Part shown: piece by piece, positions 15,634-40,774 of the stretch
Numbering within the stretch: position 1 is the stretch's first letter
Layout: the number at the start of each line of letters is the position of its first letter
From: Lachnospiraceae bacterium
GTDB lineage: Bacteria; Bacillota; Clostridia; Lachnospirales; Lachnospiraceae
Direction: 5' to 3'
Assembly (NCBI GenBank): GCA_024690605.1
Contig: JAILOV010000062.1
Span: forward strand, 62,001 to 126,000
Length of the DNA: 64,000 nt
Notes under the pieces: generated by a model
What the model was told of the DNA's origin: nothing
The model's database searches: none
Seen by the model: the letters and a program-made list of their open reading frames with translations, nothing else
Program-made: the position numbers and the translations under genes

Positions 15634-17103
15634 TCATCCGGCGGTGCGGATCCCCTTCGGATAACGGTTCTTGAGCATGCCGGCGCCCGCCCGGGCCCAG
15701 CCGAGGGAGAAGCCGCGGCAGCACATGAGAACATAGCCGGCAGCCGTACCGTCCACGTCCCCGGCATGGATCAGCCGGTCGGGCCGCAGGGTCTGACCGT
15801 TCAGAAATGCCGCAGCCTCATCGTCGGTCAGTTCCGCACAACGGAATACCTGCGACGGTGAGAGTGCGTGAGAGAGCGCATGAGCCGGCTCGATCCGGTT
15901 TTCTTTCCTGTTCGGGCGGATGTCCGCAAGATGGAGACCCGGACGCAACACCCGGAGACCGTGCAGATCGGGAAGACAGGGCGGAACGAGATAGAGATGA
16001 TCACCGAAAAGGATCAGCCGCGCGGGATCGAAATCGATGCAGACGGGGTCGCATAATAGCGAGGACAGCCAGACGCGGATCTCCTCCGCCAGTGCCTTTC
16101 CGGGAATGCCGGCCTGACTGCTTCCGGCGCCTTTTCCCGCTCTTCCGGAACGGGCGATCCCTGCGGAAAAACGACCGGCGTCCGGAATCGGTACCGTTCC
16201 CTCCCGCAGGAGCAGCGCCGAGAAATGCCCCTCCCCGTGGATCCTGTGCGGCAGCAGTTTTTCCTGTTTTTCCGGGGTAAAGTCGGGATGATCCGCAAGA
16301 AACGATGCGATCTGCTCCTCATCCTCCGCGGGGGCAAAGGTGCAGGTGGAATAGACGAGCCGGCCGCCCGGAGCAAGCATATCGGCCGCGGCCCGGAGAA
16401 TGGTGCGCTGTCTTTCGGCGCATAGACGGACCGCATCGGGAGACCATTCCCGGATGGCCTCCGGATTCTTGCGGAACATCCCCTCTCCCGAGCAGGGGGC
16501 GTCGACGAGGATCCGGTCAAAAAAGGCGGGAAAAGCGGCTGCCAGCCGCTCCGGGGATTCATTCAGAACGATCGCGTTGCGGATCCCCATGCGTTCGATG
16601 TTCTGTGAGAGGATCTTAGCGCGTGCGGGATGGATCTCGTTGGACACGAGCAGTCCCTGTCCCCGCATCGTCAGAGCCAGTTGCACACTTTTGCCGCCGG
16701 GGGCGGCGCAGAGATCCAGAACACGGAGATGACGGGAGGAGTCATTATCCGCCGAAAGCAGCATACGGGCCGGCAGCATGGCGCTCGCCTCCTGGATATA
16801 GAAGGCCCCTGCGTCGTGGAGCGGGTGCCGGCCGGGACGGTTGTCATCGGTCTCTTCATAGTAAAACCCGTCCGGGTTCCACGGTATCGGGGGATCGGAG
16901 AGTGAAAACGGAAGGCCGGAGCGGTCCGCACCGCGCAGTGTGTTCAGTTGCAGGGAATGGACCGGCGGTTCGTCAAAAGAGGAGAGGAACCGCTCAAAAT
17001 CCGCCGGTGTTTCGCCGGCGGAAGAAAGATCCACGCGCATACGGGACAGATATTCTTCCGGAAGGCCGGGCGTCGGCGCGGATTCTCGCTGCCCGCTTTT
17101 CAC
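15634..17103 (-). CDS. RsmF/NOL1-NOP2-Sun family rRNA (cytosine-C5) methyltransferase
   Basis: A 489-aa SAM-dependent RNA m5C methyltransferase. The AdoMet site LDLCAAPGGKS is at about residue 130, the first catalytic-loop Cys is in DAPCSGEGMFRKNPE, and the second Cys in YSTCTFAPAEDE. An N-terminal RsmF-type segment and a C-terminal PUA-like tail, as in the YebU/RsmF subgroup, complete it. It starts with GTG overlapping the stop of rarA by 4 bases (GTGA, 17103-17100), so it is translationally coupled to it. It acts on ribosomal RNA; the target cytosine cannot be told. Confidence 0.88.
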   Translation of the reverse strand: MKSGQRESAPTPGLPEEYLSRMRVDLSSAGETPADFERFLSSFDEPPVHSLQLNTLRGADRSGLPFSLSDPPIPWNPDGFYYEETDDNRPGRHPLHDAGAFYIQEASAMLPARMLLSADNDSSRHLRVLDLCAAPGGKSVQLALTMRGQGLLVSNEIHPARAKILSQNIERMGIRNAIVLNESPERLAAAFPAFFDRILVDAPCSGEGMFRKNPEAIREWSPDAVRLCAERQRTILRAAADMLAPGGRLVYSTCTFAPAEDEEQIASFLADHPDFTPEKQEKLLPHRIHGEGHFSALLLREGTVPIPDAGRFSAGIARSGRAGKGAGSSQAGIPGKALAEEIRVWLSSLLCDPVCIDFDPARLILFGDHLYLVPPCLPDLHGLRVLRPGLHLADIRPNRKENRIEPAHALSHALSPSQVFRCAELTDDEAAAFLNGQTLRPDRLIHAGDVDGTAAGYVLMCCRGFSLGWARAGAGMLKNRYPKGIRTAG

Positions 17104-18422
17104 GCGCCATGCTCCCGCTTCCAGTTTTTGATATAGTCCAGCCGTTCGGCGAACCTCTTCTCCTCCCCCTCACCGGTGGGACGGTAATAGGAGCGGTCCA
17201 GAAGGGAATCCGGCAGGCACTGCAGCGTGGTGAGACGGTCCTCATAGTCGTGCGCGTACATGTAGCCTTTGCCGTAGTCCAGATCGGACATGAGCTCTGT
17301 CGGTGCGTTGCGGATCTGTAGCGGCACGGGCTCCGCCAGCTGTTCCAGCGCGTCCTCTCTGGCTTCGTTGTAGGCAATCTCCATCGCATTGGATTTGGGC
17401 GCCAGCGACATGTAGACGACAGCCTCGGTCAGGTGGACCGAACATTCCGGCATGCCGATCAGACGGCAGGCTTCAAAAGCGGCGATCGCGATCTGAATGG
17501 CGCGGGGATCCGCAAGGCCGATATCCTCGCTGGCCATGCGCGTCACACGCCGGGCGATGTAGATCGGATCCTCACCGGATTCCAGCATCCTGGCCAGCCA
17601 GTAGACGGCGGCGTCCGGATCGGAATTGCGCACGGACTTGTGGAGTGCCGAGATCAGGTTGTAGTGCTCCTCGCCGTTCTTGTCATACAGCAGGGATTTC
17701 TTGGATGTGCACTGCTCGATGATCTCTGTTGTGACCGTGACCGAGCCGTCCGGCTGCATGTCTCCGTTGGTGACGACCATCTCCAGCGTGGAGAGCGCAC
17801 TCCGGGCATCGCCGTTCGAGAAATGCGCGATCAGTTCGATGTCGTCATCGGAGATATCGATCTTCTGTCCGCCGAAGCCGCGGCTGTCCGTCAGCGCGTG
17901 ATGCAAAAGCTTTGCGATATCTCCGGTCGTGAGCGCCCGGAGCACAAAAACACGGCAGCGGGAGAGCAGAGCGTTGTTCAGCTCAAAGGAGGGGTTTTCC
18001 GTCGTCGCGCCGATCAGTGTGATGCTGCCTTTTTCGACAAAGGGCAGGAATGCGTCCTGCTGTGCTTTGTTAAAGCGATGGATCTCATCAACAAAGACGA
18101 TCGTGCGGACACCGGCGAAGCGGTTGTCCTCCGCCTGTTTCATGACATCACGGATCTCCTTGATACCGCTGGTCACGGCAGAGAAGTCGATGAAATTGGC
18201 TTTGGTCCTGTTCGCGATGATCCGGGCGAGCGTGGTCTTGCCTACACCGGGCGGACCCCAGAAGATCATCGAAGAGATCTGATCGCTGTCGATGAGACGC
18301 TTCAGCACTTTGCCCTCGCCGATCAGATGCTCCTGTCCGATATAATCCTCGAGATCCCGGGGTCTTAAACGTGCCGCGAGCGGTTCCGGAACGGTATTCA
18401 TGAATAAGGACATCTGTTCCAT
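17100..18422 (-). CDS. rarA: Replication-associated recombination protein A (AAA ATPase)
   Basis: RarA/MgsA is a clamp-loader-like AAA+ ATPase that acts at stalled replication forks. The 440-aa protein shows RPRDLEDYIGQEHLIG at the start, Walker A GPPGVGKTTL (about residue 55), Walker B VDEIHRFNKAQQD, sensor 1 GATTENPSFE, and the C-terminal tetramerisation region ending in GEGEEKRFAERL. The ATG at 18422 lies just 7 bases after the -10 box, so the mRNA may be leaderless; a second ATG at 18413 is an alternative. It is followed by the coupled methyltransferase gene. Confidence 0.94.
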   Translation of the reverse strand: MEQMSLFMNTVPEPLAARLRPRDLEDYIGQEHLIGEGKVLKRLIDSDQISSMIFWGPPGVGKTTLARIIANRTKANFIDFSAVTSGIKEIRDVMKQAEDNRFAGVRTIVFVDEIHRFNKAQQDAFLPFVEKGSITLIGATTENPSFELNNALLSRCRVFVLRALTTGDIAKLLHHALTDSRGFGGQKIDISDDDIELIAHFSNGDARSALSTLEMVVTNGDMQPDGSVTVTTEIIEQCTSKKSLLYDKNGEEHYNLISALHKSVRNSDPDAAVYWLARMLESGEDPIYIARRVTRMASEDIGLADPRAIQIAIAAFEACRLIGMPECSVHLTEAVVYMSLAPKSNAMEIAYNEAREDALEQLAEPVPLQIRNAPTELMSDLDYGKGYMYAHDYEDRLTTLQCLPDSLLDRSYYRPTGEGEEKRFAERLDYIKNWKREHGA

Positions 18423-18429
18423 GCATCCT

Positions 18430-18457
18430 ATTATATCCGTTTTTTTTCTGTCTGCAA
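18430..18457 (-). promoter_or_regulatory. rarA promoter placing the start codon at about +1
   Basis: On the minus strand TTGCAG (18457-18452), 16-base spacer, TATAAT (18435-18430), then AGGATGC and the ATG at 18422. The predicted transcription start falls on or next to the ATG. Confidence 0.7.
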
Positions 18458-18494: not shown

Positions 18495-18531
18495 AGAAAC
18501 CGTTCTGAAAAAGCGCCATGGGGAGGTAACG

Positions 18532-21500
18532 ATGATCGGCGTGCGGTATTACGGATTCATCCTGTTTTTCGATCCGAGCGGTGAGAGATCTTCCTGGATC
18601 GGATCATCCATATCCACGACCCCGGACAGGATCAAAGGCGATGTGCGCTTTCAGCCGGAAAACCTGACCTTTCAGCTTACCGGATGGAATCATGTTTACC
18701 TTGTGAGCTATGTGCAGAAGACCCGGCCGAATTCCTCCCAGGTTACGGCGGATGACATCCGGCTGGTCGGCGCGTTTCCGAAAAAGCAGTATAAGGGGAC
18801 ACTTTCCGTTGACGGGCTGGGCGTGGTCACCTTCCGTGATGCACAGACCGGCGCGACGCATGTGCTGAACGGGTCCCCCGCGGGAAGCGTTGATGGCGGG
18901 TCCGCCACCGTCCATGCGGCTCTGTCCGCGGCGGGACAGGCTCCCGATCTGCCGGTCTATTCCGACGGTCAGCGTGTGCCCGTGCGGGAGCTTTCTCTTC
19001 CCGTAACTTTTCCCTTTTCCGTTTCCGATCTGGAAGCCGTGATCCGCAAACAGGACAACGGCGATCTTCTTGCGGAGATGACCCTGCCGGCAGCACGCTT
19101 CTTTTCCGGGGAAGCGGGATCCGGAGAACGCGTGGGCGTCATCAATTTCTACATGCCGAAGGGTGAGTTCGCACTCATCCGCAGTTGTTATCAGAATCAT
19201 CTGTTCGGGACGGACGATCAGTCCGCGGAATCTCATCTGATGGTTCCGTCGGAAGCGGATACGCAGGCTGTCGGAGCGGTCAAAACGGCGGGCAATCTGT
19301 ATTTTGTTTCCTATCGGGATACGGGAGAGCGAAGGCAGCATCCGAGGAATGCGGGAGAGACGCTGCCCGTGGCCGAGGCCGTGCGCTTTCTGTTTGCTGT
19401 CCCTTCCCGTCCGGTCTGCCGGGTTGAGACGGGGGAACGGGAGATCCGCGTCCTGCTTGCGCTTAAGATGGCGGAACGTCAGAAAACGGAAGTGCTGGAG
19501 CACATCCTGTCGGGTCCCACGCCCGGGCAGACGCTGGAGAGCTACCTGAATACCGTCGCATCCTCCTGTCTCAAAAACGGGCAGATGGAGATCGGACTCG
19601 AAACGGTCGAAAAATATCGGGACCGCATCGACGAGGATACCTATTACAGTGTGCGTTACCGTCTGCTTCTCAGGCTCTGCAGGGAAAAGAACGACGGAAA
19701 GATCATCCGCGACACCATCGACTGCATCGACCGGATCCTGACGTTCACAACGAAACCCAAATTCCAGCTGACCCTCCTCATCGATAAAGGCAACAAACTG
19801 GCATCGATCGGCGAGCAGGAGGCGGCGGCCGACACCTTCCGGGAATGGATGCGCAGATACCGCGTGTTTGTCGCTTCGCACCCCGAGGAGACGGAAGGAC
19901 TCAAGGTCAGCTTGCAGCTGGTGCAGAACCGCCTGCAGAGCACGGAGGAGAACGGGGCGGATGCGGACTTCCTCGACGGAGATATGCTCACGCAGGACGC
20001 CGATGAACTGTTCATGGACAGTTTTGTCACCGAGACGCTGGAGGATGAGAAATACAGCTGCGCGGCGATCTTCGGGACGGAATATGCCCGCTATGACGAT
20101 CCGCAGACACTCACGGAGGAGGATGCCGTTTCGATCCGGGAATTTCTGGATGCGCAGCCGCCGGCAGTGGAACAGGTGAAACCGGAAAAACTCTGGGCAC
20201 TGGCCAGGCTCTGTCACAGACTGGAGGAGGCATCGGTCCATGTATCGGAAGAGGACGCTCTGTCCTCGCTGCGGGATGAGTTTATCCGGGAGGCACTCTA
20301 CCGGGAAGCCGAGAAACAGCTGATCGCGGCTGAGAAAGCGCCGGACGGCGGATCGCCTTTCCGGAATACGGCGCTGCTGTTCAGCCAGTCGGCACTGTCC
20401 TATTATGTCGGTGACGACGAGATCGCCGCGGCGGTCGGGACGGTCTGTCTGCAGGCCGGGGAATTTCGCAGTGCACTGGACGGCGGCCTGACACTGGATG
20501 CGGTTCTTGCAAAGGCCGCAGCCGGCAATGCGCTGCCGGCAGCCGTTCGGGCGCTGGTCTTCCTGAGCGGCAGAAACCGGACGGTCAGAGACTATGCGGA
20601 GAAAGCGCTGGCAGGGATCGCCCGGGACGGCCGGGCGGCAGGTTGGAATGAACTGCTCGCGGGCCTGCGCCGTTTTGCGGATGACCGTGACGCTGCGCCG
20701 GCGGACGCGCTGGAAACCGCAGCCGGGCGTTTTGAGACCTTTGTCCGCACGTTTTCCAAAGCACCGGTCAGCGGGAAACTCCCGGGGATCGCGGCGGAAT
20801 ACGCGGACCTTCTGTCACAGATCACGGCCGCCGGCTGGGATGAGGGCGAAGAGATTCCGGCAGACAGTCTGCGGATGCAGTTTCTGGAACTTCTGAAATA
20901 TGACGCTGCCAAAGGCTTTGCCAACAAGTCGGAGATCCTCACCGGCTTTCTGCGGGATCTTCACAACGCGGTCGAGACGATCGGGCAGCAGCCGACGATC
21001 CTGTCGGATGCCTGTTATCGCAGGAAATTCGAAGCACTGGAGGAACAGGTCACGCAGGCATACAGAAAGCTGTGTCAGACGACCAAGCCGATCGTGAAGA
21101 TCGGAGATAAAGGCAGGGTCGCGCAGTCACCGGGAGAAAACGGCGAACTGGTGCTGGAGATCCCGGTCATCAGCGCTGACAATTATGTGCAGAATGCGGC
21201 AAATGTCTGTCTGCATCTGCGCCCGGATGAGAGCGGCAGCTGTTCCTTCGCGGAGACGATCCCGCTGTCCGGGGAGATCCCCAGTGACGGAAGGACGGTG
21301 ATCGTCCGCGTGCCGGTGAATCTGAAGCGCCCGGCGGAGATCATCACGGTCCGGGCCCAGCTGACCTATGACTATATCAGTGATATCGATATCAAGTACG
21401 GGAAAAAACGCAGAATCACCCGGACGGAAAAGGTCAGCGGAACAGCGGTCTTTCCCGATCTGGCGCAGTGGAAGAGCCTGGATATCGCGGTGGAACAGAT

Positions 21501-22935
21501 CACAAGGCATCCGCTGACGCTGGACCGTGTGGATCAGTTTGCCGAGAACGGCAATGTCAGGCTGACCGATCCCGGGATCAGGCAGATCCTGAAAAACCGT
21601 GATGAGACGATCAGGGAAGCCATCGACTGTCTGACCTGCCCCGATCCGTCCGCTCCGGAACGGCGTATCCCCAATCCGATGGGTCGATGGGTGATCGAGC
21701 ACGGACAGTGGCGTTCCGGCAAGACGGTGGTGATGAAGATCATCGAGGACAGGCTGAAGGATCGGGCAAGCTTTCCGCATGTCTATGTGCTTTATCTTGA
21801 TCTGTCAAAGGTCAAGCCGCAGCGGAAGGACGCCGGTGACGGAGCGCTTTCGGAGGCGACCGGCAGTTTTGATGATGCCATCGCCTATCACATCTATTTC
21901 GGGCTGCGCAAACTGATCGGCAGGGAAAACGAGGAGGATTTCCGGCTGTTTGAAGAACTCCGGGAGGAATATGATCTGCCGGAGAAGATGCATGCGGACA
22001 GGAAACTGACCTATGTTCCCTGGGAGATCATGACCCTCTTCCTGAGGGATTTTGTGCAGGATCTGCAGGAGCGGGATCCAGAAGCGGGGATCGCGCTGCT
22101 TGTCGATGAATTCACGGAGGTCTATCCGGCCATCCGTTCGGGACGGGTGGACGCGGATTTCCTGAAGCGCTGGGTCGCGATGCTCGCCGAGGCGCGGGTG
22201 CTGTGCGTGACGGCAGGCGGAGAGCACATGAAGACCATGCTGCAGACCTATGCGCCGAATGCGCAGCAGAAGGCGAACAAATATCTGCTCATCGATTATC
22301 TCTCCAGGGAGGACACGGAACTCTTTGTCCGCTATGTTCTCGGAGAATCCGCGCAGGATGCCGTCCCGGAGCGTAACGCCTATCTGACCCCCGCGTTCGC
22401 GGAGGAGACGATCAACCGGATCTATCGCCTGACCCGCGGAAACGCCTACATGCTCAAGAGACTGTGCAGCTGGCTGATCAACTACATCAGGATGACGGAT
22501 CAGGGGATCCTCAAAGCCACCACCGTGCTGGCCGCAGTTGATGATTTCCTCGAGCGGTCGGGAAGAGAGGGGGATCAGATCGAGACCGATCTGTTCCATT
22601 CGCTCTTCGACCCGTTCCGCGAACTGTCCGAAGAGGCCGCGGACCGGTACGCGGACGACGCACCCCGTATCGAGGATGACGAGGTCCGCGAGGACAATCT
22701 GCTGATCCTGCACACGATCGTGGCACTGGCCAATCCGGAGAGCCATCTCTGCACCTATGAGGAACTCCGGAGTGCCTGCGGCGACCGGATGGGCGGTACG
22801 GATCGCTTTGAAAAGCGCTTCCGGACGCTGAAGGACCGCAGGATCGTGGTGCTTGACGCCAATGATAATGTCTCTGTCTACGTGGATCTCTACTACGAGG
22901 TGATCTCCCGGGTGGGTAGAAAGGAGAGTGTCTGA
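18532..22935 (+). CDS. Large multidomain P-loop NTPase with cold-shock-like and helical-repeat regions
   Basis: A 1467-aa protein with no close characterised relative that I recognise. Residues 1-88 and about 199-300 each follow the order of a cold-shock OB fold (GVINFYMPKGEFALI versus the usual GxVKWFNxxKGFGFI, ending in an LYFVSY strand); this is a reading by eye. Residues 305-445 look like helical (TPR-like) repeats, and 870-985 are beta-rich. The NTPase has Walker A GQWRSGKT (1058-1065, K1064) and Walker B ALLVDE (D1192, E1193), as in STAND-like ATPases. A winged-helix-like C-terminus follows (1378-1467). The ATG at 18532 follows GGGGAGGT. It heads a three-gene operon with two more NTPase-type proteins. 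Confidence 0.75.
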   Translation: MIGVRYYGFILFFDPSGERSSWIGSSISTTPDRIKGDVRFQPENLTFQLTGWNHVYLVSYVQKTRPNSSQVTADDIRLVGAFPKKQYKGTLSVDGLGVVTFRDAQTGATHVLNGSPAGSVDGGSATVHAALSAAGQAPDLPVYSDGQRVPVRELSLPVTFPFSVSDLEAVIRKQDNGDLLAEMTLPAARFFSGEAGSGERVGVINFYMPKGEFALIRSCYQNHLFGTDDQSAESHLMVPSEADTQAVGAVKTAGNLYFVSYRDTGERRQHPRNAGETLPVAEAVRFLFAVPSRPVCRVETGEREIRVLLALKMAERQKTEVLEHILSGPTPGQTLESYLNTVASSCLKNGQMEIGLETVEKYRDRIDEDTYYSVRYRLLLRLCREKNDGKIIRDTIDCIDRILTFTTKPKFQLTLLIDKGNKLASIGEQEAAADTFREWMRRYRVFVASHPEETEGLKVSLQLVQNRLQSTEENGADADFLDGDMLTQDADELFMDSFVTETLEDEKYSCAAIFGTEYARYDDPQTLTEEDAVSIREFLDAQPPAVEQVKPEKLWALARLCHRLEEASVHVSEEDALSSLRDEFIREALYREAEKQLIAAEKAPDGGSPFRNTALLFSQSALSYYVGDDEIAAAVGTVCLQAGEFRSALDGGLTLDAVLAKAAAGNALPAAVRALVFLSGRNRTVRDYAEKALAGIARDGRAAGWNELLAGLRRFADDRDAAPADALETAAGRFETFVRTFSKAPVSGKLPGIAAEYADLLSQITAAGWDEGEEIPADSLRMQFLELLKYDAAKGFANKSEILTGFLRDLHNAVETIGQQPTILSDACYRRKFEALEEQVTQAYRKLCQTTKPIVKIGDKGRVAQSPGENGELVLEIPVISADNYVQNAANVCLHLRPDESGSCSFAETIPLSGEIPSDGRTVIVRVPVNLKRPAEIITVRAQLTYDYISDIDIKYGKKRRITRTEKVSGTAVFPDLAQWKSLDIAVEQITRHPLTLDRVDQFAENGNVRLTDPGIRQILKNRDETIREAIDCLTCPDPSAPERRIPNPMGRWVIEHGQWRSGKTVVMKIIEDRLKDRASFPHVYVLYLDLSKVKPQRKDAGDGALSEATGSFDDAIAYHIYFGLRKLIGRENEEDFRLFEELREEYDLPEKMHADRKLTYVPWEIMTLFLRDFVQDLQERDPEAGIALLVDEFTEVYPAIRSGRVDADFLKRWVAMLAEARVLCVTAGGEHMKTMLQTYAPNAQQKANKYLLIDYLSREDTELFVRYVLGESAQDAVPERNAYLTPAFAEETINRIYRLTRGNAYMLKRLCSWLINYIRMTDQGILKATTVLAAVDDFLERSGREGDQIETDLFHSLFDPFRELSEEAADRYADDAPRIEDDEVREDNLLILHTIVALANPESHLCTYEELRSACGDRMGGTDRFEKRFRTLKDRRIVVLDANDNVSVYVDLYYEVISRVGRKESV

Positions 22936-22937
22936 CC

Positions 22938-23576
22938 ATGCAGGAGGAAAGACGGATCAAGAGAAGCTGGAAGGAATTCAGCGAACGCCTGATCGCGAGG
23001 GTGCAGGACGGCAGGCATTTCGCGGAGGCTGTGTATGAACCGGACAGGGCAGCGCAGACGGAGAGAGCCGCTGCCGCCGCGCAGCAGTTTGCCGCGGCAC
23101 TGCCGGGCTGTATCCCCGTCTGCGTCGATCTGGAAAAAGCGGGGGATTTTGCCGGTCTTCTGCGCATCGTGCTGGATGCGATCTTCACGCAGATCCCGGA
23201 AAAAGCCGGCGGGGAAGCCGGGGAAGAGATCGATGAACTGGCTGCGGAATTCTACAAAGAAGAGGAAGGCGCGGACCGGTCCGCGGAGAGCGAATATCTC
23301 AAGGTTGTCTTCCAGGAACTCCTGGAGGATATCCTCCCCGAAACCGGTGTCCGGGTGATCCTCATCCTGGCGCATTTTGAGGCGGCCGCGGACAGCTGGG
23401 ACCGGTATGACTTTGGCTTCATGCGCGCCAACAATTTCATCGACTGTCCGCCGTCGCTGCTGCTCTACGCCGACCGTGCGCTCTGTGAGGTGAGCGAGCT
23501 TCCGGACGGTTCCTCTCCGTTCTACAATATCTTCGGTGACAGCGGGAGCCTTCTGATGGAGTTTGCCTATGAATGA
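22938..23576 (+). CDS. Degenerate NTPase-like protein without nucleotide-binding motifs
   Basis: A 212-aa protein related to the NTPase core of the next gene. Its segment GVRVILILAHFEAAADSW aligns with GVRTVLILDEFEAVAENW of that protein, but Walker B Asp-Glu is replaced by Ala-His (A145, H146), and no Walker A is present. The part after the missing P-loop (PVCVDLEKAGDFAGLLRIV) also aligns. It is therefore probably an inactive partner subunit rather than a broken gene: the frame is intact, the ribosome site (AAGGAGAG) is good, and it overlaps the next gene by 8 bases. Coding style matches its neighbours. Confidence 0.65.
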   Translation: MQEERRIKRSWKEFSERLIARVQDGRHFAEAVYEPDRAAQTERAAAAAQQFAAALPGCIPVCVDLEKAGDFAGLLRIVLDAIFTQIPEKAGGEAGEEIDELAAEFYKEEEGADRSAESEYLKVVFQELLEDILPETGVRVILILAHFEAAADSWDRYDFGFMRANNFIDCPPSLLLYADRALCEVSELPDGSSPFYNIFGDSGSLLMEFAYE

Positions 23577-25566
23577 TCAGATGTTTGCGGTCAGTAAGGG
23601 CGCCGTGACCGGTGCGGATTTTATCGGTCGGGAAGAGGAACTCGGTTTTCTCGATGCGGCCGCGGACGCAGGCCTCGTAAAGCACATTTCGCTCCACGGT
23701 CTGCCGCATGTCGGGAAAAGCTCGCTGGTGATGGAGTGGGTGCACCGGCGGGAAGCTGACGGGATGCGCACGGCTTCCGGCCGGCCGCTTCTTGTCCTCT
23801 CGGAGACGACCAACCGGTATGCCGGATTTGCTCCGCTTTTTAGGCGCCTTGCCCGCAGTCTTTCCAGAGAGATCAGGAACGCCATGCGGGACGACCGTCT
23901 GCCTGCGCAGGAAGAGACGCTGACGGCACTGTCGGACAGACTGAAGGAGATCTCCCGGGATCCCCGCCGGGAGGGGGTCCGGACGGACGCATCCGAAGCT
24001 TCCGGAGACGGCGATCTGACGGAGGTGATCTCCTCTGCGCTTCATGCGATCGGCGGAAACGGCGTCCGCACGGTGCTCATCCTGGATGAATTCGAAGCTG
24101 TCGCGGAAAACTGGACGGAGGAGGAGTTCCTTGCCTTCGCGGCGCTTCTCCTGGACAGACGGACGGAGCTGTTCTGCATTGCGGTTTCCCGCCCGCATAT
24201 TTCCTATATCACGTCAGCCTTTGAGAGGCAGATCGCACCCTTTGTGCCGCATCTTCTCCCGTCCTTTCCGGACCGGGATGTGCTCTGTCTTCTGAAACGG
24301 CTCGCAGAGGCCGGCGGAGAAGAAGCGGATCTGACCGGCCCGCAGCATGCCGCCGGTCGAAACCGGATGCTGTACTACTGCGGCAGGAACCCGTATCTGC
24401 TGACCTGCATGGCCGGTGCGATGCTGGAGGAGAACTGTTTTTCTCCCGATGAGATCTTCGCCCGTCGGAGGGCGACCTATCGGCAGCATTTTCACGATGT
24501 CGTGCGTTTTATGCTCCGGGAGGAGAAGGGGGCGCAGAAGAGTTTTTCCCATGTGATCAAGTGCTATTTCGGCACCTCCGAGGACTATGCCGACATCCTG
24601 AAGGGCTATCTTCCGCTCGGTTATATCGAGCGGGAAGACAGGGAAGGGATGTTCGCAGAGGTCTTTGACCGTTTCTCCTTTACCGATGAGGAGACCGGGG
24701 AGGCCTGGTACTATGTCACGGTGAGTCCTGCGTTCATCGACTATCTCTACACGGACACGCTGGATGAGATCCGCGATGTACGGGATCTCCTGACGGGTTT
24801 CATCCATTCCCTCAGGGACATCACCAGGCGGGAACTGGAAGAGGTGTATCCCGCGCCGGCGGACTGGAACGAGGAACTGCTCCTCCGGTTCCGCGGACAT
24901 ACGAAAAACGATCCGTCGAGGGCGGAATACCGTGCGGAGAGCAACACGCTCTATGCGGTCTGGCTGCCGGTCAAAAGAAGTTATATCTGGTGCACGATGG
25001 CGGCGCTCCGCTCGGGGCAGATCCTCGGTCATTCCAATTCCCCGGACGAGCCCTGGATCAAAGACCGGCGGGAATGGATCGAGAGGAACGAGCAGCAGAT
25101 GATCGATATGGCGAGCACTTCGCTGTTCTTTGCGGCGCAGAAGTTCAATGAGAAAAAGAGGCGCCGGGATGCGCTGGATGTGATGCCGGTGCTGGATGCC
25201 ATCAGTCTCACGGATCACGCGGCGATCCTGAAACGGTATGCCAATCGCTTCGTAAAATACTTCGGTGTGCTGGGCGATCTGCGGAACGATCCGGAGGCGT
25301 TCGATCTTTTGAACGGGCATCTGCAGTATGTGCAGGACAGGATCCGCAATCCGATCAGTCATTATGCCCGCAGCAGTTTTTCTCCCGAGGAAAAGCTGAA
25401 GAACAGGAGCCTGTGTATCTATCTGCTGGGGAGCATCTACAGCTGTTTTGCCGATGGCAGGGTAGCGGAGAAAAAGGCGTTCCGGCCGGAGACGGCGGAA
25501 ACCGTCAGGGCGGCACACGAAGCGAGAGAGCGGTACAGGGAGAGCGGTGTTCCGGGCACTCCCTGA
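23569..25566 (+). CDS. STAND-like NTPase with a C-terminal HEPN-like segment
   Basis: A 665-aa protein. It starts with FIGREEEL, then Walker A GLPHVGKSS (44-52, K50) and Walker B TVLILDEFE (D173, E174), and continues with AAA/STAND-type helices. The C-terminal 120 residues are helical and contain R593-N-P-I-S-H598, the RNxxxH (Rx4H) pattern of HEPN ribonuclease domains, in a helix like that of STAND-associated HEPN domains. If active, it would be an NTPase-gated RNase, as in many defence systems. The ATG at 23569 overlaps the previous stop (8 bp); an in-frame TTG 6 bases upstream is less likely. Confidence 0.75.
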   Translation: MNDQMFAVSKGAVTGADFIGREEELGFLDAAADAGLVKHISLHGLPHVGKSSLVMEWVHRREADGMRTASGRPLLVLSETTNRYAGFAPLFRRLARSLSREIRNAMRDDRLPAQEETLTALSDRLKEISRDPRREGVRTDASEASGDGDLTEVISSALHAIGGNGVRTVLILDEFEAVAENWTEEEFLAFAALLLDRRTELFCIAVSRPHISYITSAFERQIAPFVPHLLPSFPDRDVLCLLKRLAEAGGEEADLTGPQHAAGRNRMLYYCGRNPYLLTCMAGAMLEENCFSPDEIFARRRATYRQHFHDVVRFMLREEKGAQKSFSHVIKCYFGTSEDYADILKGYLPLGYIEREDREGMFAEVFDRFSFTDEETGEAWYYVTVSPAFIDYLYTDTLDEIRDVRDLLTGFIHSLRDITRRELEEVYPAPADWNEELLLRFRGHTKNDPSRAEYRAESNTLYAVWLPVKRSYIWCTMAALRSGQILGHSNSPDEPWIKDRREWIERNEQQMIDMASTSLFFAAQKFNEKKRRRDALDVMPVLDAISLTDHAAILKRYANRFVKYFGVLGDLRNDPEAFDLLNGHLQYVQDRIRNPISHYARSSFSPEEKLKNRSLCIYLLGSIYSCFADGRVAEKKAFRPETAETVRAAHEARERYRESGVPGTP

Positions 25567-25574
25567 GGAGTTGC

Positions 25575-25603
25575 TTGCCGTGACCGCTGTTTGTTGATAT
25601 AAT
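25575..25603 (+). promoter_or_regulatory. leuCD promoter
   Basis: TTGCCG (25575-25580), 17-base spacer, consensus TATAAT (25598-25603), 46 bases before the leuC start. The 83-bp gap is too short for a T-box leader, so leucine control through one is unlikely here. Confidence 0.75.
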
Positions 25604-33198: not shown

Positions 33199-33333
33199 GC
33201 ATCCCGAAGAAAAGATGCGGGATGACATCACCGGCATGTTGCGGCAGATGCTCGAAAACGGTGGCGAAACGGAGCGATTCGGTGTATCATTATTAGAGTT
33301 CTGAAACCGGGCATCACACTTTTGGGAGGATTC

Positions 33334-35478
33334 TTGAGATCCGGATCGACTGAAATCACAGGCAGCCCCTGGGCAAGGAGGATCGCGGTCGCCATCGGCG
33401 TCGCGGTCAACTGCGGTCTGGCGTATGTTGTCAACCGGTCCGGTCTTCCGCTGCTTTTCGATACCGCGGGGACCATCTGCGTCGCCGCGCTGGCAGGTGC
33501 CTTTCCGGGCATGCTGACCGGCGTTCTGACCAATCTGCTGTGCGGCATCTTCAATCCCTATTCCGTTTTCTATACACTGATCAGCGTGCTCATCGCCATG
33601 TTCTGCTCGTGGTATGTTCACCGCTCCCATGCGGAAAAGAAGTCGGGGATCCTCCTGCTGGCTCTGATCCTCGGTCTGTTCAGCGGTGTGGCCGGCATGC
33701 TCTTCCAGTGGATCCTGATCGGCGGACCGCAGTTTGAAAGTGTCGCTGAGGCGGTCAGACTGCTGGGGCTGTCGGGGATCGGCTTTTTCTTCGGTTCGGT
33801 GCTCATCAATACCGCGAACAATCTGATCGACAAGCTGGTGATGACGATACTGGCTTTTCTGGTCATTTCCCTTCTGCCGCGGAGGATAAAGGACGCACTC
33901 AAAAACTGCGGATGGAAGCAGAAACCGCTGCCTGACCAGGTGCAGGATGAGTTCTACGGAATGCGGGACAAAAACTCCCTGAGTGTGCGGACGGCTGTGA
34001 TGCTGGTCTTCGCGTCCCTTGCGCTCACGGCCACCATGGCCTCGATCGTCATCAGCCTTTACTACGGCAACAAGAAACAGGAATACAGGGAAAACGCGGA
34101 GTATGCGGCCAGGCTTGCCGCCGGCGTCATCGATCCCGATAAGGTGGACGAATACATCGTGAACGGGGAAGAGGAACCGGGTTATACCGAGACGAGAGAA
34201 AAACTCAGGCAGATCCGCGACAACTCGCAGGGGGTCAAATATCTCTATATCCTCAAGGTGCGGGAAGACGGATGTTACATCGTCTTTGACCTGGATACAC
34301 CGGACACGCCCGCGTTGGAGCGCGGTTCCCGGCTGGAGTTCGAGGAAGCCTTCATGGATGATCTTCCGTCGCTGCTGGCGGGAGAGGAGATCGAACCGAT
34401 CGAGTCCGATGATGTCTCCGGATGGGTGCTCACGGCCTACCATCCCGTGCGGAATGCCGCGGGCAAGACTGTTTGCTACGCCGGCGCCGACGTTTCCATG
34501 CTCTATCTCTCCGGTTTCGTCAGGGATTTCCTTGTCAAAACGATCCTGATCTTTTCCGGCTTTTTCATCCTGGTCCTTTCCTACGGTCTGTGGGTCACGA
34601 AATACTACTACATCTTTCCGGTCGTCAGCATTACCCGGGTGGCCAAGGGGTTTGCCGAGAACACCTCGGATCAGAAGGCACTCGATGAAAATGTGCGAAA
34701 GATCAAGGATCTGTCGATCCACACGGGCGACGAGGTGGAAGAACTCTATCAGTCACTGAACCGGATGTCCGCCGACATGGCGGAGCAGGTGCGCAGGATC
34801 CGCTACTATGCAGCGGAGACCGCCAGCATGCAGAACGGTCTCATCATCACCATGGCGGATATGGTGGAAAGCCGTGATTCCGACACCGGTGCGCACGTGC
34901 AGAAGACGGCGGCCTATGTGCGGATCATCCTGGAAGGGCTGAAGAAAAAGGGATACTACACCAAAAAGATCACGCCCAATTACATCTCGGATGTGGAGAT
35001 GTCCGCACCGCTTCATGATGTCGGCAAGATCAATATTCCGGACGCCGTTTTGAACAAGCCCGGGAAGCTGACGGAGGAGGAATACGAGATCATGAAGACG
35101 CACACGACCGCAGGCAAGAGGATCCTGGAGAACGCGATCAACACCGTGCACGGCGGGAGCTATCTGCGGGAGGCCAGGAACATGGCGGCCTATCATCATG
35201 AACGCTGGGACGGCAAAGGCTATCCGGAGAAGCTCCACGGCGAAGTCATCCCGCTCTCCGCGCGCGTGATGGCGGTGGCCGACGTGTTTGACGCGCTGAC
35301 TTCGAAACGTGTCTACAAGCCGCCGTTTTCTCTGGAAAAAGCACTGGAGATCATTCAGGATGGATCCGGTACGCAGTTTGATCCCAAGTGTGTCGAGGCC
35401 TTGATGGATTCACTGCCCGAGGTCAAGGTGGTGCTCAAAAAATATAACAATTACCGCGAGGAGAGAAACCTGTCATGA
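33334..35478 (+). CDS. HD-GYP-type membrane signalling protein
   Basis: A 714-aa protein likely to degrade cyclic di-GMP. It has an N-terminal multi-helix membrane region (about residues 12-190), a second membrane pair flanking an extracellular sensor (about 215-425), a HAMP-like linker, and an HD-GYP domain with H561-D562 in the HDVGK motif and HHERWDGKGYP near residue 624. I choose TTG 33334 with GGGAGGA four bases upstream; a TTG at 33322 lies before that site. Its stop overlaps the start of the following kinase (ATGA), so the three signalling genes form one unit. Confidence 0.85.
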   Translation: MRSGSTEITGSPWARRIAVAIGVAVNCGLAYVVNRSGLPLLFDTAGTICVAALAGAFPGMLTGVLTNLLCGIFNPYSVFYTLISVLIAMFCSWYVHRSHAEKKSGILLLALILGLFSGVAGMLFQWILIGGPQFESVAEAVRLLGLSGIGFFFGSVLINTANNLIDKLVMTILAFLVISLLPRRIKDALKNCGWKQKPLPDQVQDEFYGMRDKNSLSVRTAVMLVFASLALTATMASIVISLYYGNKKQEYRENAEYAARLAAGVIDPDKVDEYIVNGEEEPGYTETREKLRQIRDNSQGVKYLYILKVREDGCYIVFDLDTPDTPALERGSRLEFEEAFMDDLPSLLAGEEIEPIESDDVSGWVLTAYHPVRNAAGKTVCYAGADVSMLYLSGFVRDFLVKTILIFSGFFILVLSYGLWVTKYYYIFPVVSITRVAKGFAENTSDQKALDENVRKIKDLSIHTGDEVEELYQSLNRMSADMAEQVRRIRYYAAETASMQNGLIITMADMVESRDSDTGAHVQKTAAYVRIILEGLKKKGYYTKKITPNYISDVEMSAPLHDVGKINIPDAVLNKPGKLTEEEYEIMKTHTTAGKRILENAINTVHGGSYLREARNMAAYHHERWDGKGYPEKLHGEVIPLSARVMAVADVFDALTSKRVYKPPFSLEKALEIIQDGSGTQFDPKCVEALMDSLPEVKVVLKKYNNYREERNLS

Positions 35479-38081
35479 ACGAAAAGCAAATCAGGGATGA
35501 GCTGTCGCAGACATCGCACATCGTGATCCTCATCAGCTACACGATCCTGTCCGTCATTCTGATCGGGGAATCTCTTCTGCTGGGGTGGGAGACCTGGGCG
35601 CTGATCCTGATCGCCGTGGGCCTGTGCATCGCGTGGATCCTTCATATCCGGCAGACCCTGAGCACCTACACCAGACAGTGGATCTATTCCGTGATGATGA
35701 TGGCGACGTTTTTCTTCTACGGGATCCATCCGACGTCGACCTATGATCTCTGCGGCGTCATGGGCGCCGTCATCATGATCTACTCCATGACCGGGGTGGA
35801 GGCGCTGATCTATCTCTGTCAGGGAACCTATATCGTGACCTTCCTCTACGGGATCATTGCCATGGCTCACGGCGGAGAGGCACTGGACGCGCTGATGATC
35901 ACGCGATCGCTCCTGCATGTGGGACTCATTCTTCTCATGGGCAGGATCGCGCGTGTCATCATCGACCGGTGGGGATCGATCCTGAGCAGGGTGAAGGGAG
36001 AATCCTTTGATCTGAAAAGGCAGATCGAACGTCTCAACGATTTCCTGGTGAACATCTCCCATGAGATCCGGACGCCGGTCAATGCGATCATCGGTCTGGC
36101 GGGTGTCTGCGCCAAAGAGGAAACGAATGAGAAGATCAGGGGGGATCTTGCCTCCGTTTCCGATGCCGGAAAAAAGATCGGCGAGCTGATGGGGGATATC
36201 CTGGACTATTCCGAGATCGATATGAACCGGCTGGCGGTCAGCACCGAGGAGTATATGCTGTCCTCCCTCATGAGCGATATCGTCGTGGAGATCACGCCGC
36301 ACATGAACGAAGAGGTGGAGCTGGTGATCGATGTGGATTCCGGCATCCCTTCCGTCATGCGCACGGATGTCGGCAAGCTCAAGAAGATCCTGAAGCATCT
36401 GATCGACAATTCGATCAAGTATACCAGAGAGGGCGGCATCTACGTGCATCTGTTCGCCGAACGGAGAGATTACGGCATCAACCTGTGTATCGAGGTGTCC
36501 GACACCGGGATCGGCATGAGCGCAAAGGAGATCGAGCGGGTGTTCGATCGTTTCTTCCAGGCCGATTCGGGAAGGGCAAGGACCACGAGCGGCCTGGGAC
36601 TCGGCCTTTCCATCGTGAACGGTTTTGTGCGGAGCCTGAACGGTTTCCTCACGCTGGAGAGCGAACCGGGGAAGGGAACTTCCGTCCGGGTCAGCATTCC
36701 GCAGGAGATCGTGGACGATCAGAAATGCATGAGCCTCAAAGCCTCCTCGGAACGGACGGTGGGCTCCTATTTCCATTTTGAGAAATATCCGCATCCGCAG
36801 GTCAGACACTACTACAACGCCATGGTCCGCGATCTGACGATCGGTCTGGATGTGAAGATGCAGCGGGCGGACAACATCGAAGGATTCCGGAAATTGGCCC
36901 GAGCGACACATTTCACGCATGTCTTCGTCGGCAAAGAGGAATATGAGGAGGATGTAGAATTCTTTGAGGAACTGGCAAAGGAAACGCTGGTGGTGGTCGT
37001 TGCCGATCATTCGTTCAGACCGGGCAGGAACACAAATGTCCGCGTTCTGTACAAGCCGTTCTACTGCTTCCCCGTGATCGCCTTCCTGAACAAGATGAAG
37101 GGCGAGGAAGAGGAGGAAGAAGGCAGACTCTACACGAGAGGTGTCAAGGCACTGGTGGTGGATGACGAGCCGATGAACCACATGGTCGCCAGGGAGGTCT
37201 TCGGCGAATACGGGATGGAGGTGCATTCGGTGATGTCCGGAGAGGACGCGATCACCGCCGTTTCCGATACGGATTATGATATTGTCTTCATGGATCACAT
37301 GATGCCGGGAATGGACGGTGTGGAAGCCATGAAGCGGATCCGTGCCAGGATGGGAAGACTGGGCAAGGATATGCCGATCGTTGCCCTGACCGCCAACGCG
37401 GTGAGCACGGCCAAGGAAATGTTCCTCAGAGAGGGCTTTGACGGCTTCATCGCCAAACCGATCGAGATCTTTGAACTGGAACGCGTGCTCAGAAAAGTGC
37501 TGCCGAAGTCCATGATCACGATCGAGGTGGAATCCGGTACGCACGGGGGATCGTCGGGAGCGGGGCCGTCCGCAGAGAACGGATCCTCGGGCGGCCCCTT
37601 CGCCGAGCTGGAAAACCACGGGGTGAACACAAAGACCGGCATGACCTTCTGCCAGAACGACCGGGAATTCTACGGGCAGATGCTCGCCCAGTACGGATCG
37701 GAGGGGGAGAAGAAGCATGCGGATCTGGACAGATATCTCGCTGCCGGGGATCTGAAGAACTATGAGGTGCTCATCCATTCGGTCAAGAGCAGTTCCAAGA
37801 TGATCGGCGCCATGGACCTGTTTGAGCGGGCGAGGCAGCTTGAGGAAGCGGCAAAGGCCGGTGACGGAGAGACGATCCGGCGGGATCACGGCGGCGTCAT
37901 GGCGGACTATGACGGGCTGACGGGCCTGATCCGGCTTCTGTTCGGCGGGCCGGCCGCGGGGGATGCGACAGACGGCGCCGGTGCTTCTCCGGATGACGAC
38001 ATCCTCGAGTTTGCTGCCGAGGAGGCGCCGGAGGACGGGATCACGGAATTTGTGCCGGAAGCGGGGGAGGAACCGGTATGA
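35475..38081 (+). CDS. Hybrid histidine kinase with receiver and HPt domains
   Basis: An 868-aa phosphorelay protein. Six hydrophobic helices (about 15-170) form the input. The dimerisation domain has H196 in NISHEIRTP. The kinase domain has N-box LIDNSIKYT, G1 DTGIGM and G2 GLGLGLS. A degenerate receiver (about 430-545) lacks the acidic pocket. The true receiver has D563/D564 and phosphoacceptor D607 (FMDHMMPGMDG). The HPt domain has H768 (IHSVKSSSKMIG). A 40-residue acidic tail ends it. It overlaps both neighbours by 4 bases. It should send phosphate by an internal four-step relay; its output regulator is not in the window. Confidence 0.88.
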   Translation: MNEKQIRDELSQTSHIVILISYTILSVILIGESLLLGWETWALILIAVGLCIAWILHIRQTLSTYTRQWIYSVMMMATFFFYGIHPTSTYDLCGVMGAVIMIYSMTGVEALIYLCQGTYIVTFLYGIIAMAHGGEALDALMITRSLLHVGLILLMGRIARVIIDRWGSILSRVKGESFDLKRQIERLNDFLVNISHEIRTPVNAIIGLAGVCAKEETNEKIRGDLASVSDAGKKIGELMGDILDYSEIDMNRLAVSTEEYMLSSLMSDIVVEITPHMNEEVELVIDVDSGIPSVMRTDVGKLKKILKHLIDNSIKYTREGGIYVHLFAERRDYGINLCIEVSDTGIGMSAKEIERVFDRFFQADSGRARTTSGLGLGLSIVNGFVRSLNGFLTLESEPGKGTSVRVSIPQEIVDDQKCMSLKASSERTVGSYFHFEKYPHPQVRHYYNAMVRDLTIGLDVKMQRADNIEGFRKLARATHFTHVFVGKEEYEEDVEFFEELAKETLVVVVADHSFRPGRNTNVRVLYKPFYCFPVIAFLNKMKGEEEEEEGRLYTRGVKALVVDDEPMNHMVAREVFGEYGMEVHSVMSGEDAITAVSDTDYDIVFMDHMMPGMDGVEAMKRIRARMGRLGKDMPIVALTANAVSTAKEMFLREGFDGFIAKPIEIFELERVLRKVLPKSMITIEVESGTHGGSSGAGPSAENGSSGGPFAELENHGVNTKTGMTFCQNDREFYGQMLAQYGSEGEKKHADLDRYLAAGDLKNYEVLIHSVKSSSKMIGAMDLFERARQLEEAAKAGDGETIRRDHGGVMADYDGLTGLIRLLFGGPAAGDATDGAGASPDDDILEFAAEEAPEDGITEFVPEAGEEPV

Positions 38082-40774
38082 TGAGGATATTCAATAAATC
38101 GAGCGAAGAGGCGCTCATCAGAACCTATCGTTCATCGATCCTGTCCTCCTGCGTGGCGCTTTTCTGTGTGGCTGCACTGGAGATCATCATGCTCGGCGCG
38201 TCCGCTCTCAACCCGGGACTGTACGGAGACTATCTGGTGATCTATCGCTGCCTTTATCTGATGCTGTTTGCCGTCTCGCTGGCCTGCGCGTTCCTGTGCC
38301 TTTATGTCCGCAGGGATTTTCCGAACCGGTACCGGATGCTGGGTGTTGGCTATCCGGTCGCGGCGGTCATCTTTTTCCTGTGGATCCTTGCGATCAGCTA
38401 CTATGATACAAAGGTCAACGGTGTCGCCGATCCGATCGCCTATATGACCTTTTCTCTGGCGGTCCCGCTTTGCTTCTACATGCCGGCGCCGCTGTATACC
38501 GTGATCTCCGTGGCTGCCGATGCGATGATGGCGCAGATCCTGTTCCTTGCGCCGGCATCCGCGGCGTCCATGCCCAACATGATCGTTTTCTTCTTTTTTC
38601 AGCTGGTCCTCGGCATCGGGTTTCTCCGGATCAAAAAGGATCTGACGGAGCAGATCATCGCTTCCGAAGCCAAGACGGCCGAGGTGGAGGAGATCTCCCG
38701 CGCGCAGAGCCATTTCTTCTCCAACATGAGCCATGAGATCCGCACGCCCATCAACACGATCATCGGGCTGAATGAGATGATCCTCAGGGAGAACGCCTCG
38801 GACGAGATCAACGAGGATGCAGAAAACATCCAGGCGGCCAGCAGGATGCTGCTTCATCTGATCAACGACATCCTTGACATGTCCAAGATCGAATCGGGCC
38901 AGATGCAGCTGAACGAAGCCCCCTATCACCCGGGGGACATGCTCTCGGATATCGTGGGCATGCTCTGGCTGCGTGCAAGGGAAAAGGATCTGGAATTCCA
39001 TATCGACATCTCGCCGGAGATCCCTGCCGTGCTCTACGGGGATGAGGTCAGGATCAAGCAGATTCTGATCAATGTGCTGAACAATGCGATCAAATACACG
39101 CAGGAGGGCTCGGTGAAGCTTTCCGTTCATTGCAAACGGGATGACGCCGGCGGTGCGGTGATCACCTATGCAGTCAAGGACACCGGGATCGGGATCAAAA
39201 AGGAGAACCTGCCTTATCTTTTCACGGCGTTCAAACGGGTGGACGAGGAAAAGAACAAGCATATTGAGGGAACGGGTCTGGGACTCTCCATTGTCAAACA
39301 GATGGTGAACATGATGAACGGCACCATTTCCGTCAACAGTGTCTACACCAAGGGCTCCACGTTCCTGATCGAGATCCCGCAGAAGATCGTCAACAATTCC
39401 TATATCGGGGAGATCGATCTGGAAAGAAGACGGCGGGAAAAGAAAGAACATATCTACGTAGAATCCTTTGAGGCACCGGAGGCCAGAGTGCTGGCGGTGG
39501 ATGACACGGCGGCCAATCTCATGGTGGTGCAGAAGCTTCTCAAGGCGACCCGCGTGCAGCTGGATATCGCTTCTTCGGGTGAAGAGGCGCTGAAAAAGAC
39601 GCTGGCGGAATCCTATCATGTGGTGCTGATGGATCACAAGATGCCGGAGATGGACGGTGTGGAGTGCATGCATGCCATGCGGAAGCAGACGGGCGGCCGC
39701 TGCCATGATGCCAAGATCATCGCGCTGACCGCCAATGCCGGGAGCGATATGGAGGCAAAGTATATCAATGAGGGCTTTGACGGCTATCTGCTCAAGCCCG
39801 TGACGGGAGATGAGCTGGAAAGCACCCTTTTCCGCTTCCTGCCCAGAGATCTGGTCACGGTGACGGGTTCCGCGGAGAAACTTGCCGAGGAGAGCACCGC
39901 CTGGCTTGATGACCACAGGAAAAAAGTGTCCGTCAGGATCACGACGGAAAGCGTGGCGGATCTGCCGGGTGAACTCATCGCAAAGCATAACATCGCCGTG
40001 CTTCCGCATACCGTGCAGACCGAACACGGTCTGTTCAAGGACGGCCTGGAGATCGATACCAGAGGGCTGCTGCCGCTCATGGAGAGCGGGTCTGAGGTGG
40101 TCCTGACAAAGGCTCCGTCACAGGAGGATCATGAGCGTTTCTTCTCAAGACAGCTGGATGAGGCAAACAATATCGTGCATATCTCGATCTCCAGCAAGCT
40201 TGCCGAGAGCGGCTGTATCATCGCCGAGAGGGCTGCGGACTGCTTTGAGAACGTGAGCGTTGTGGATACCGGACATCTCTCCAGCGGGCAGGGACTCATG
40301 GCGATCGAGGCGGCCAGACTTGCCGAGGAGGGACTGCCGCCCGAGGAGATCACGAAGGAACTGGATAAGATGAAGAGCCATGTCTACACCAGTTTCATTG
40401 TGGACTCCATGGATTTCCTCGCAAGACAGAAGCAGGTGAGCGAGCGGATCGCACGGCTGGCAGACGCTTTGATGGTGCATCCGGTCCTCGCGCTGAAGAA
40501 GGGCAGAATGGGTGTTTCCAGGATCTATTTCGGCTCCAGAGAGCGGGCCTGGGAGAGATACATCGCCTCTGTTTTCCGGGTGCCCGGCGTGATCGACAAA
40601 CGGATGCTGTTCATCACCTATGTCGGCATGACGGTGCGGGAGATCGAAGAGGTGCGCGCCATGGCGGAAAAATATGTCCGGTTTGACAAGGTCTATTACC
40701 AGAAGGCTTCGCCCGCCATCGCCGCAAACTGCGGTCCCGGGACATTCGGGCTGCTGTTCTTCACGAGATATTGA
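38078..40774 (+). CDS. Hybrid histidine kinase fused to a DegV domain
   Basis: An 898-aa protein joining a membrane histidine kinase to a full DegV (EDD-fold, fatty-acid-binding) domain. Helices occupy about 24-190; H219 is in NMSHEIRTP, kinase boxes follow (NNAIKYT, DTGIGI, GTGLGLS), then a receiver with D519 (LMDHKMPEMDG). Residues 617-898 match DegV/FakB: TTESVADLP, a TKAPSQEDH segment, ISISSKLAES and VDTGHLSSGQGLM. DegV proteins bind fatty acids or acyl phosphates. The fusion suggests lipid-state input or output for a phosphorelay (inference). The stop overlaps the opposite-strand phosphatase gene by 14 bp. Confidence 0.85.
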   Translation: MMRIFNKSSEEALIRTYRSSILSSCVALFCVAALEIIMLGASALNPGLYGDYLVIYRCLYLMLFAVSLACAFLCLYVRRDFPNRYRMLGVGYPVAAVIFFLWILAISYYDTKVNGVADPIAYMTFSLAVPLCFYMPAPLYTVISVAADAMMAQILFLAPASAASMPNMIVFFFFQLVLGIGFLRIKKDLTEQIIASEAKTAEVEEISRAQSHFFSNMSHEIRTPINTIIGLNEMILRENASDEINEDAENIQAASRMLLHLINDILDMSKIESGQMQLNEAPYHPGDMLSDIVGMLWLRAREKDLEFHIDISPEIPAVLYGDEVRIKQILINVLNNAIKYTQEGSVKLSVHCKRDDAGGAVITYAVKDTGIGIKKENLPYLFTAFKRVDEEKNKHIEGTGLGLSIVKQMVNMMNGTISVNSVYTKGSTFLIEIPQKIVNNSYIGEIDLERRRREKKEHIYVESFEAPEARVLAVDDTAANLMVVQKLLKATRVQLDIASSGEEALKKTLAESYHVVLMDHKMPEMDGVECMHAMRKQTGGRCHDAKIIALTANAGSDMEAKYINEGFDGYLLKPVTGDELESTLFRFLPRDLVTVTGSAEKLAEESTAWLDDHRKKVSVRITTESVADLPGELIAKHNIAVLPHTVQTEHGLFKDGLEIDTRGLLPLMESGSEVVLTKAPSQEDHERFFSRQLDEANNIVHISISSKLAESGCIIAERAADCFENVSVVDTGHLSSGQGLMAIEAARLAEEGLPPEEITKELDKMKSHVYTSFIVDSMDFLARQKQVSERIARLADALMVHPVLALKKGRMGVSRIYFGSRERAWERYIASVFRVPGVIDKRMLFITYVGMTVREIEEVRAMAEKYVRFDKVYYQKASPAIAANCGPGTFGLLFFTRY

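Follow-up and report, generated by a model that had tools for sequence, protein, structure and literature searches.

The 64,000-nucleotide stretch of contig JAILOV010000062.1 from a Lachnospiraceae bacterium (hereafter the window) carries three adjacent genes, g1, g2 and g3, which we consider, with a confidence somewhat above even, to encode a three-subunit switch in which STAND-type nucleoside triphosphatases (NTPases) control a HEPN ribonuclease (RNase). The operon is real and rare, and it is kept in one other genome whose gene context is visible. Computed profile comparisons show all three predicted proteins to carry related NTPases, of which those of g1 and g3 keep their motifs and that of g2 has lost them, and the C-terminal domain of g3 is very probably a HEPN domain. 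As a whole the operon looks like a rare defence-like device built from known kinds of parts. Its features are the following.

18521 to 18525, forward strand: GGAGG, read from the sequence as the likely ribosome-binding site of g1
18532 to 22935, forward strand: g1, 1467 residues, ATG start; residues 1 to about 1000 without a recognised domain, about 1010 to 1330 a P-loop NTPase, then a conserved C-terminal tail; proposed sensor or initiator subunit
22938 to 23576, forward strand: g2, 212 residues, 2-bp gap after g1; degenerate NTPase core of STAND type that lacks the P-loop and the Walker B Asp-Glu; proposed inactive adaptor
23569 to 25566, forward strand: g3, 665 residues, 8-bp overlap with g2; residues 5 to 405 a STAND NTPase, then a helical C-terminal domain bearing R593-N-x-x-x-H598; putative HEPN RNase and proposed effector
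25345 to 25362, forward strand: codons of R593-N-P-I-S-H598 within g3, the putative HEPN active-site motif

An earlier note on this DNA had described three tightly linked genes under one promoter, a sensor, an inactive partner and an NTPase-gated RNase. The linkage was borne out in its open reading frame coordinates, its gap and its overlap, and the start of g1 at 18532 is backed by the GGAGG box and, in alignment, by the matching start of its homologue at a second locus (L002, see below). In general the anatomy proposed in that note is largely right; the function it gave was inferred, and its promoter and a cold-shock region in g1 find no support.

Related NTPases predicted in the three proteins

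STAND NTPases carry an N-terminal FxGR motif, a Walker A motif, a Walker B motif with Asp-Glu, an arginine after the next strand and a GxP motif in a winged helix. A large protein database search returned 20 g3-type proteins, the window copy included, and in all of them the corresponding positions of g3 (18-21, 44-51, 173-174, 208-209 and 272-278) are invariant or nearly so; K50, D173 and E174, as well as R593-N-P-I-S-H598, stand where the earlier note had placed them. The NTPase of g3 is the only part of the operon above a Pfam cut-off (AAA_16, 1.5e-11), and in NCBIfam none of g1, g2 and g3 exceeds one. The AlphaFold2 model of g3, built from 20 sequences (predicted local distance difference test score, pLDDT, 82.4; predicted template modelling score, pTM, 0.79), resembles over residues 5-405 the archaeal ATPases 2qen and 2fna, CED-4 and the plant NLR resistosomes, with ORC and TnsC chains lower down. 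Both the motif set and an NTPase-plus-winged-helix fold like that of AP-ATPase, MNS and NLR proteins are hence found in g3, whose NTPase is, in the predicted structure, of STAND fold.

The second intact NTPase is that of g1, with the Walker A motif GQWRSGKT (K1064) and the Walker B motif LLVDEFTE (D1192, E1193), exactly as described before. It is related to the NTPase of g3 by profile comparison (E 2.5e-9 in one pairwise comparison) and gives weak matches to ATPase_2 (PF01637), 7e-4 in the window copy and 2e-7 in the L002 copy. Upstream of this domain, the cold-shock-like region that had been reported was not confirmed: the N-terminal pieces of g1 match no Pfam family, cold-shock included, and residues 1-120 and 150-300, compared by hhalign with a 22-sequence cold-shock profile, failed to outscore the best of their respective 20 column-shuffles, in a test that is weak because the g1 profile consists of two sequences. 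One of seven segments, residues 835-1000, reached an E value of 0.068 against 0.18 for its best shuffle, at 0.8% probability, and was taken as a chance match.

The protein between them, g2, had been read as an inactive partner that has lost Walker A and has Ala-His in place of Asp-Glu. Both losses are confirmed, since g2 contains no GK[ST] and its ILAHFEAA stands opposite ILDEFEAV of g3; moreover, GK[ST] and the Asp-Glu pair (hhDE) are absent from all five g2-type sequences, in which the glutamate two residues further on is kept. We regard g2 as a relative of these NTPases because of its profile comparison with the NTPase of g3 (hhalign E 1.4e-9, one pairwise comparison), and the g3 profile itself also matches g2 directly (E 5.2e-6, for one genome). 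By eye, g2 ends approximately where the lid and the winged helix would start, which is also how inactive STAND proteins of the BrxB type are described (PMC12839542). From its sequence, the identification of g2 as a degenerate STAND NTPase copy and inactive partner is well supported, by the homology as well as by the loss of the motifs in five sequences out of five. A g2-like segment is fused ahead of g3 in three of the 20 g3 proteins (P0009, P0012 and P0013), a fusion that speaks for g2 and g3 being physically linked.

The C-terminal domain of g3

HEPN RNases have a four-helix domain and act without metal. The hallmark of HEPN domains is an Rx4-6H motif with a polar residue after the arginine (PMC3710099; here and below, statements on cited work refer to excerpts of the papers). 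The C-terminus of g3 has R593-x4-H598 in all 20 proteins, the other 19 of which are 29-47% identical to the window copy, and position 594 is asparagine in 19 of them and aspartate in one. Because RNxxxH alone is a weak signal, occurring in 5.3% of 20,000 shuffles of g3, it is the invariance of the arginine and the histidine that constitutes the real evidence; the earlier note had asked whether these residues vary freely among homologues, and neither varies. Sequence profiles point the same way. In full-length Pfam scans of the g3 proteins, HEPN_Apea was matched by 3 of 20 and HEPN_Swt1 by 2 of 20, over stretches that cover the motif and with printed scores below the cut-offs. Scans of the isolated core, which took in 19 of the 20 sequences and list neither scores nor cut-offs nor matched stretches for individual members, were led in Pfam by HEPN_Apea (7 of 19, best 0.0006), Abi_2 (5 of 19) and HEPN_Swt1 (4 of 19) among 16 families, and in NCBIfam the three strongest of 6 models were DS11_antiphage (5 of 19, best 2e-5), Cas13b and Cas13a (1 of 19 each). 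Abi2 is placed in the HEPN superfamily (PMC3710099), Cas13 is a HEPN system and DS-11 has a HEPN domain (PMC13092281). A search of PDB sequences with the g3 C-terminus (query A4) gave 11 rows, four of them CRISPR-associated (E 0.079-0.15), with RNxxxH aligned in one shown. The model of the domain is helical, with the motif closing helix 575-598 (pLDDT 82.9 for the isolated domain).

Some observations weigh against this assignment. The window's own g3 core matched no HEPN family in the Pfam and NCBIfam core scans, the PDB-sequence search placed the non-HEPN protein 2nrj at the same level (0.087), and the model of the isolated domain had no significant fold match in PDB or BFVD. The last of these is not, in our judgement, evidence against HEPN, and the domain remains very probably one. 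The missing match to HEPN structures gives room to a different explanation, in which the C-terminal domain would be a helical domain of another kind that acquired RN-x3-H by convergence and the operon would form an ORC- or TnsC-like NTPase assembly on DNA. The matches of TniB (PF05621) to 18 of the 20 g3 proteins (best 9.8e-7) and the ORC and TnsC chains that the NTPase matches in structure fit this explanation; the ranking of HEPN families first in both core scans, the invariance of R593 and H598 and the finding of nothing transposase- or recombinase-like among the 19 neighbouring proteins scanned do not, and we consider it improbable.

Similarly improbable, in our view, is that the operon is a defence system whose output would be an activity of g1 or of residues 314-352 of g3, with the HEPN domain serving for RNA binding alone. 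Of the 43 invariant columns of g3, 11 fall within residues 314-352 (F314, E318, E319, S325, H328, K331, C332, D339, Y340, D342 and Y352) versus 5 within 515-665, and g1 has residues 1-1000 free of any assigned domain, both of which would suit such an output. Conversely, the two catalytic HEPN positions are conserved throughout the 20 proteins, which mere binding would presumably not need. Bringing together the STAND fold, the invariant arginine and histidine and the profiles that point to HEPN, the joining of a STAND-like NTPase to a HEPN domain, as first suggested from the sequence, is well supported; g3 is proposed to act as an RNase.

Two further candidates were discarded as clues to this domain. 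The RnlA_toxin match of one g3 protein (P0014) sits in the NTPase part (226-257), and HEAT_IPO9_c, matched by 4 of 20 full-length members and so by more than the 3 of HEPN_Apea, was judged a chance match in a helical region. Separately, the N-terminal half of a 286-residue protein of genome G238 (contig L033, 3254-4114, reverse strand) is similar to the C-terminal domain of g3 alone and contains RNKLYH; the protein matches the g3 profile at 478-577 (E 1.8e-5, for one genome, among 391 class genomes) and no Pfam family at cut-off.

Relatives, gene linkage and distribution

Protein database searches with g1 and with g2 each returned the query itself only; the g3 search and one of these two were limited to some 8,000 scored candidates each and may have missed relatives. 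Genome context is visible for one of the other 19 g3 proteins (P0006), the remaining 18 carrying only the source "ena" or "lgn". That protein belongs to L002, the one further locus found in a scan of genome contigs, which comes from the metagenome-assembled genome SUG1317 and has three adjacent genes in the order g1-g2-g3.

5502 to 9761 of L002: 29% identity to g1 over nearly its full length
9758 to 10360 of L002: 29% identity to g2 over 140 columns
10362 to 12182 of L002: 37% identity to g3 in the best segment

The flanking genes of L002 differ from those of the window operon. The linkage of the three genes, which could have proved scattered, is thus kept at the only other locus with visible context. 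The host of L002 was not placed: its NaPRTase is at best 78% identical to genomes of the same genus, yet 76% identical to one in another family.

Searches of genomes from successive ranks show the operon to be rare. At E <= 1e-3 the g3 query had no match in any of the 60 relatives searched, a set with 36 genomes of the same genus; the g3 profile at E <= 1e-15 found its own genome alone among 383 genomes of the order and 378 of the phylum (own genome included, draws overlapping), and the g1 profile found its own genome alone among 299 drawn from the family. At the looser threshold of E <= 1e-3 the g3 profile gave matches in 231 of the 391 genomes of the class, its own among them. We did not count these as relatives because the rows listed are mostly confined to the P-loop region and reach at most 37.9 bits, the best value outside the own genome among them: all but three (g3, g2 and the 478-577 match in G238) lie within about the first 135 positions. 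No operon match was found in viral contigs (first screened by short patterns), phages or plasmids. In 79 class genomes PF18739 gave no match, with its control silent too, and PF18731 gave matches in 2 of 79.

The site of the operon was compared as well. It lies between rarA and leuC, and leuC has a strong match in 37 of 41 same-genus genomes (own included). In 20 of the 36 other same-genus genomes, the 6-10 kb or so upstream of leuC contain no rarA, g1, g2 or g3 (tblastn E <= 1e-8). In the two closest relatives rarA and leuC are on different contigs, and in G733 gene order is conserved from the gene at 12564 as far as rarA and is lost immediately upstream of it. The operon therefore sits at a junction not seen in the 20 same-genus genomes compared.

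Proposed mode of action and comparison with known systems

In the mechanism that we propose, g3 would unite a STAND NTPase with a HEPN domain at its C-terminus. The inactive STAND core g2 would pair with g3, and recognition of a trigger would fall to the N-terminal region of g1, a related NTPase of very large size. Sensing of the trigger would lead to the NTP-dependent co-assembly of the three related subunits, bringing HEPN domains together; the resulting dimer would cleave cellular RNA, and growth arrest or death would limit a phage or other invader. Complex formation, the sensor role of g1, the RNase activity, its RNA target and the purpose in defence are what we infer. By analogy with known systems, trigger-dependent co-assembly, HEPN dimerisation and RNA cleavage may be considered the likeliest mode.

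The closest of these systems is nSTAND2, whose mobile operon comprises two genes, one for an active and one for a motif-eroded STAND protein, which are proposed to form a hetero-multimer, with the effector (GT4 or HEPN) on the inactive one (PMC8195603). The pairing of active and inactive STAND NTPases and the presence of HEPN among the two commonest effectors are shared with the window operon, which may work in a like manner. By its layout it is not, however, a member of the nSTAND2 two-gene class, because it has three NTPases and its effector is on the active g3; here the inactive protein is free-standing or fused ahead of the active one, and the nSTAND2 section of PMC8195603 makes no mention of a g1-like protein. 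Bacterial HEPN-STAND proteins likewise unite a HEPN RNase and a STAND NTPase in one polypeptide, but they are single proteins with an N-terminal HEPN domain, whereas here this domain is C-terminal and there are two partner genes; some of them have cold-shock-like oligonucleotide-binding folds, a domain not confirmed in our operon (PMC3710099).

Comparable parts occur in several other systems. By description, g2 is like BrxB of BREX, a compact inactive STAND protein without Walker motifs or C-terminal helical bundle that stands beside active ATPases and is sometimes fused to another component (PMC12839542), but no PglZ, methylase or BrxC of BREX was found among the neighbours examined. DUF499/Hma-type systems are defence operons of several genes that also have a HEPN RNase fused to a STAND/ORC-Cdc6 ATPase; unlike the window operon, they have methylase and helicase partners and an N-terminal HEPN domain (PMC12839542). 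DS11_antiphage, the best NCBIfam match of the g3 core, is from its name presumably the DS-11 of PMC13092281, whose defence requires its HEPN residues and which, unlike g3, is a single protein with a CBS domain in place of STAND. Staphylococcal Tha is a HEPN system that phage tail proteins can activate (PMC11087260). CoCoNuTs (PMC11090510), which have McrB-type GTPases, and the type IX retron (PMC13405049) were set aside as comparisons. The earlier note had called the system undescribed. This holds for the exact three-gene set, a three-subunit version with the effector on the active STAND protein not being found in the open-access literature searched, but not for its kind, as both STAND-HEPN fusions and active/inactive pairs have been published (PMC8195603, PMC3710099).

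Most of the well-known STAND immune proteins of bacteria are single chains that both sense and act. We put forward as possible, although doubtful, that the operon departs from these single-chain NLR-like proteins and forms a hetero-oligomeric STAND assembly of three paralogous NTPases, one permanently inactive, in which a 1467-residue sensor NTPase would license a HEPN RNase as a three-component immune switch, analogous to the mixed active and inactive ATPase rings of ORC. The role of inactive STAND proteins in immunity is a prediction in PMC8195603, where they are seen as nucleic-acid receptors, and a system with sensing, inactive adaptor and HEPN effector on three related NTPases would allow a direct test of it.

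Defence context and neighbouring genes

Neither the surroundings of the operon nor profile searches add to the case for a role in conflict with invaders: no defence island was found among the neighbours examined, and none of the families of PADLOC-DB 2.0.0 matches g1, g2 or g3 at E <= 1. The operon accordingly adds a target beyond what the profiles of that database recognise. Among eight homologues scanned with PADLOC, none was matched for g1 and g2 of L002, P0005, P0011 and P0012, and matches were weak in P0008, P0009 and P0018, for example to mad8 (best 3e-6) and PDC-S27 (best 4e-5).

These surroundings bear on the alternative that the STAND-controlled HEPN RNase serves a stress response or self-limitation, as in toxin-antitoxin-like addiction, with g2 or g1 restraining g3. 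HEPN RNases also act in toxin-antitoxin modules (PMC3710099), no defence or mobile-element genes stand among the neighbours examined, and the base composition of the operon is ordinary, without contrast to its surroundings. Its patchy distribution and very large first protein nonetheless suit invader sensing better, and an antitoxin of 1467 residues would be unusual, so that we find this alternative unlikely and retain the invader-sensing switch as the preferred reading.

The three co-directional genes are flanked by rarA on the opposite strand and by leuC, names that we assume from the sequences of these genes. The single promoter proposed in the earlier note could not be substantiated: upstream of g1 there is a single promoter-like site (18407-18434), which agrees at 9 of 12 positions, and such sites number 4 in the region versus 2.2 +/- 1.4 in shuffled sequence. 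The best match of the region, at 10 of 12 positions and with TG preceding the second hexamer, is on the forward strand at 25575-25603, directly downstream of g3 and ahead of leuC. The rarA gene (17100-18422, reverse strand) is 88% and 85% identical to its counterparts in two same-genus genomes and about 44-49% identical to those of eight others, a far sharper drop than that of leuC.

A PADLOC scan of ten neighbours gave matches in four, which we attribute to membership of common superfamilies: rarA matched AAA+ models, a methylase matched mad2 (6.7e-24), and there were weak matches to ZorA and Cas3. The methylase (15634-17103, reverse strand) is presumably an RsmF-like rRNA methylase, judging from its sequence, and its match is likely a false positive of the mad2 model. 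Further downstream, a single protein (38078-40774, forward strand) unites HisKA, HATPase_c, a receiver domain and a C-terminal DegV domain, an unusual fusion; the genes ahead of it (33322-38081) encode an HD-domain protein and a hybrid histidine kinase.

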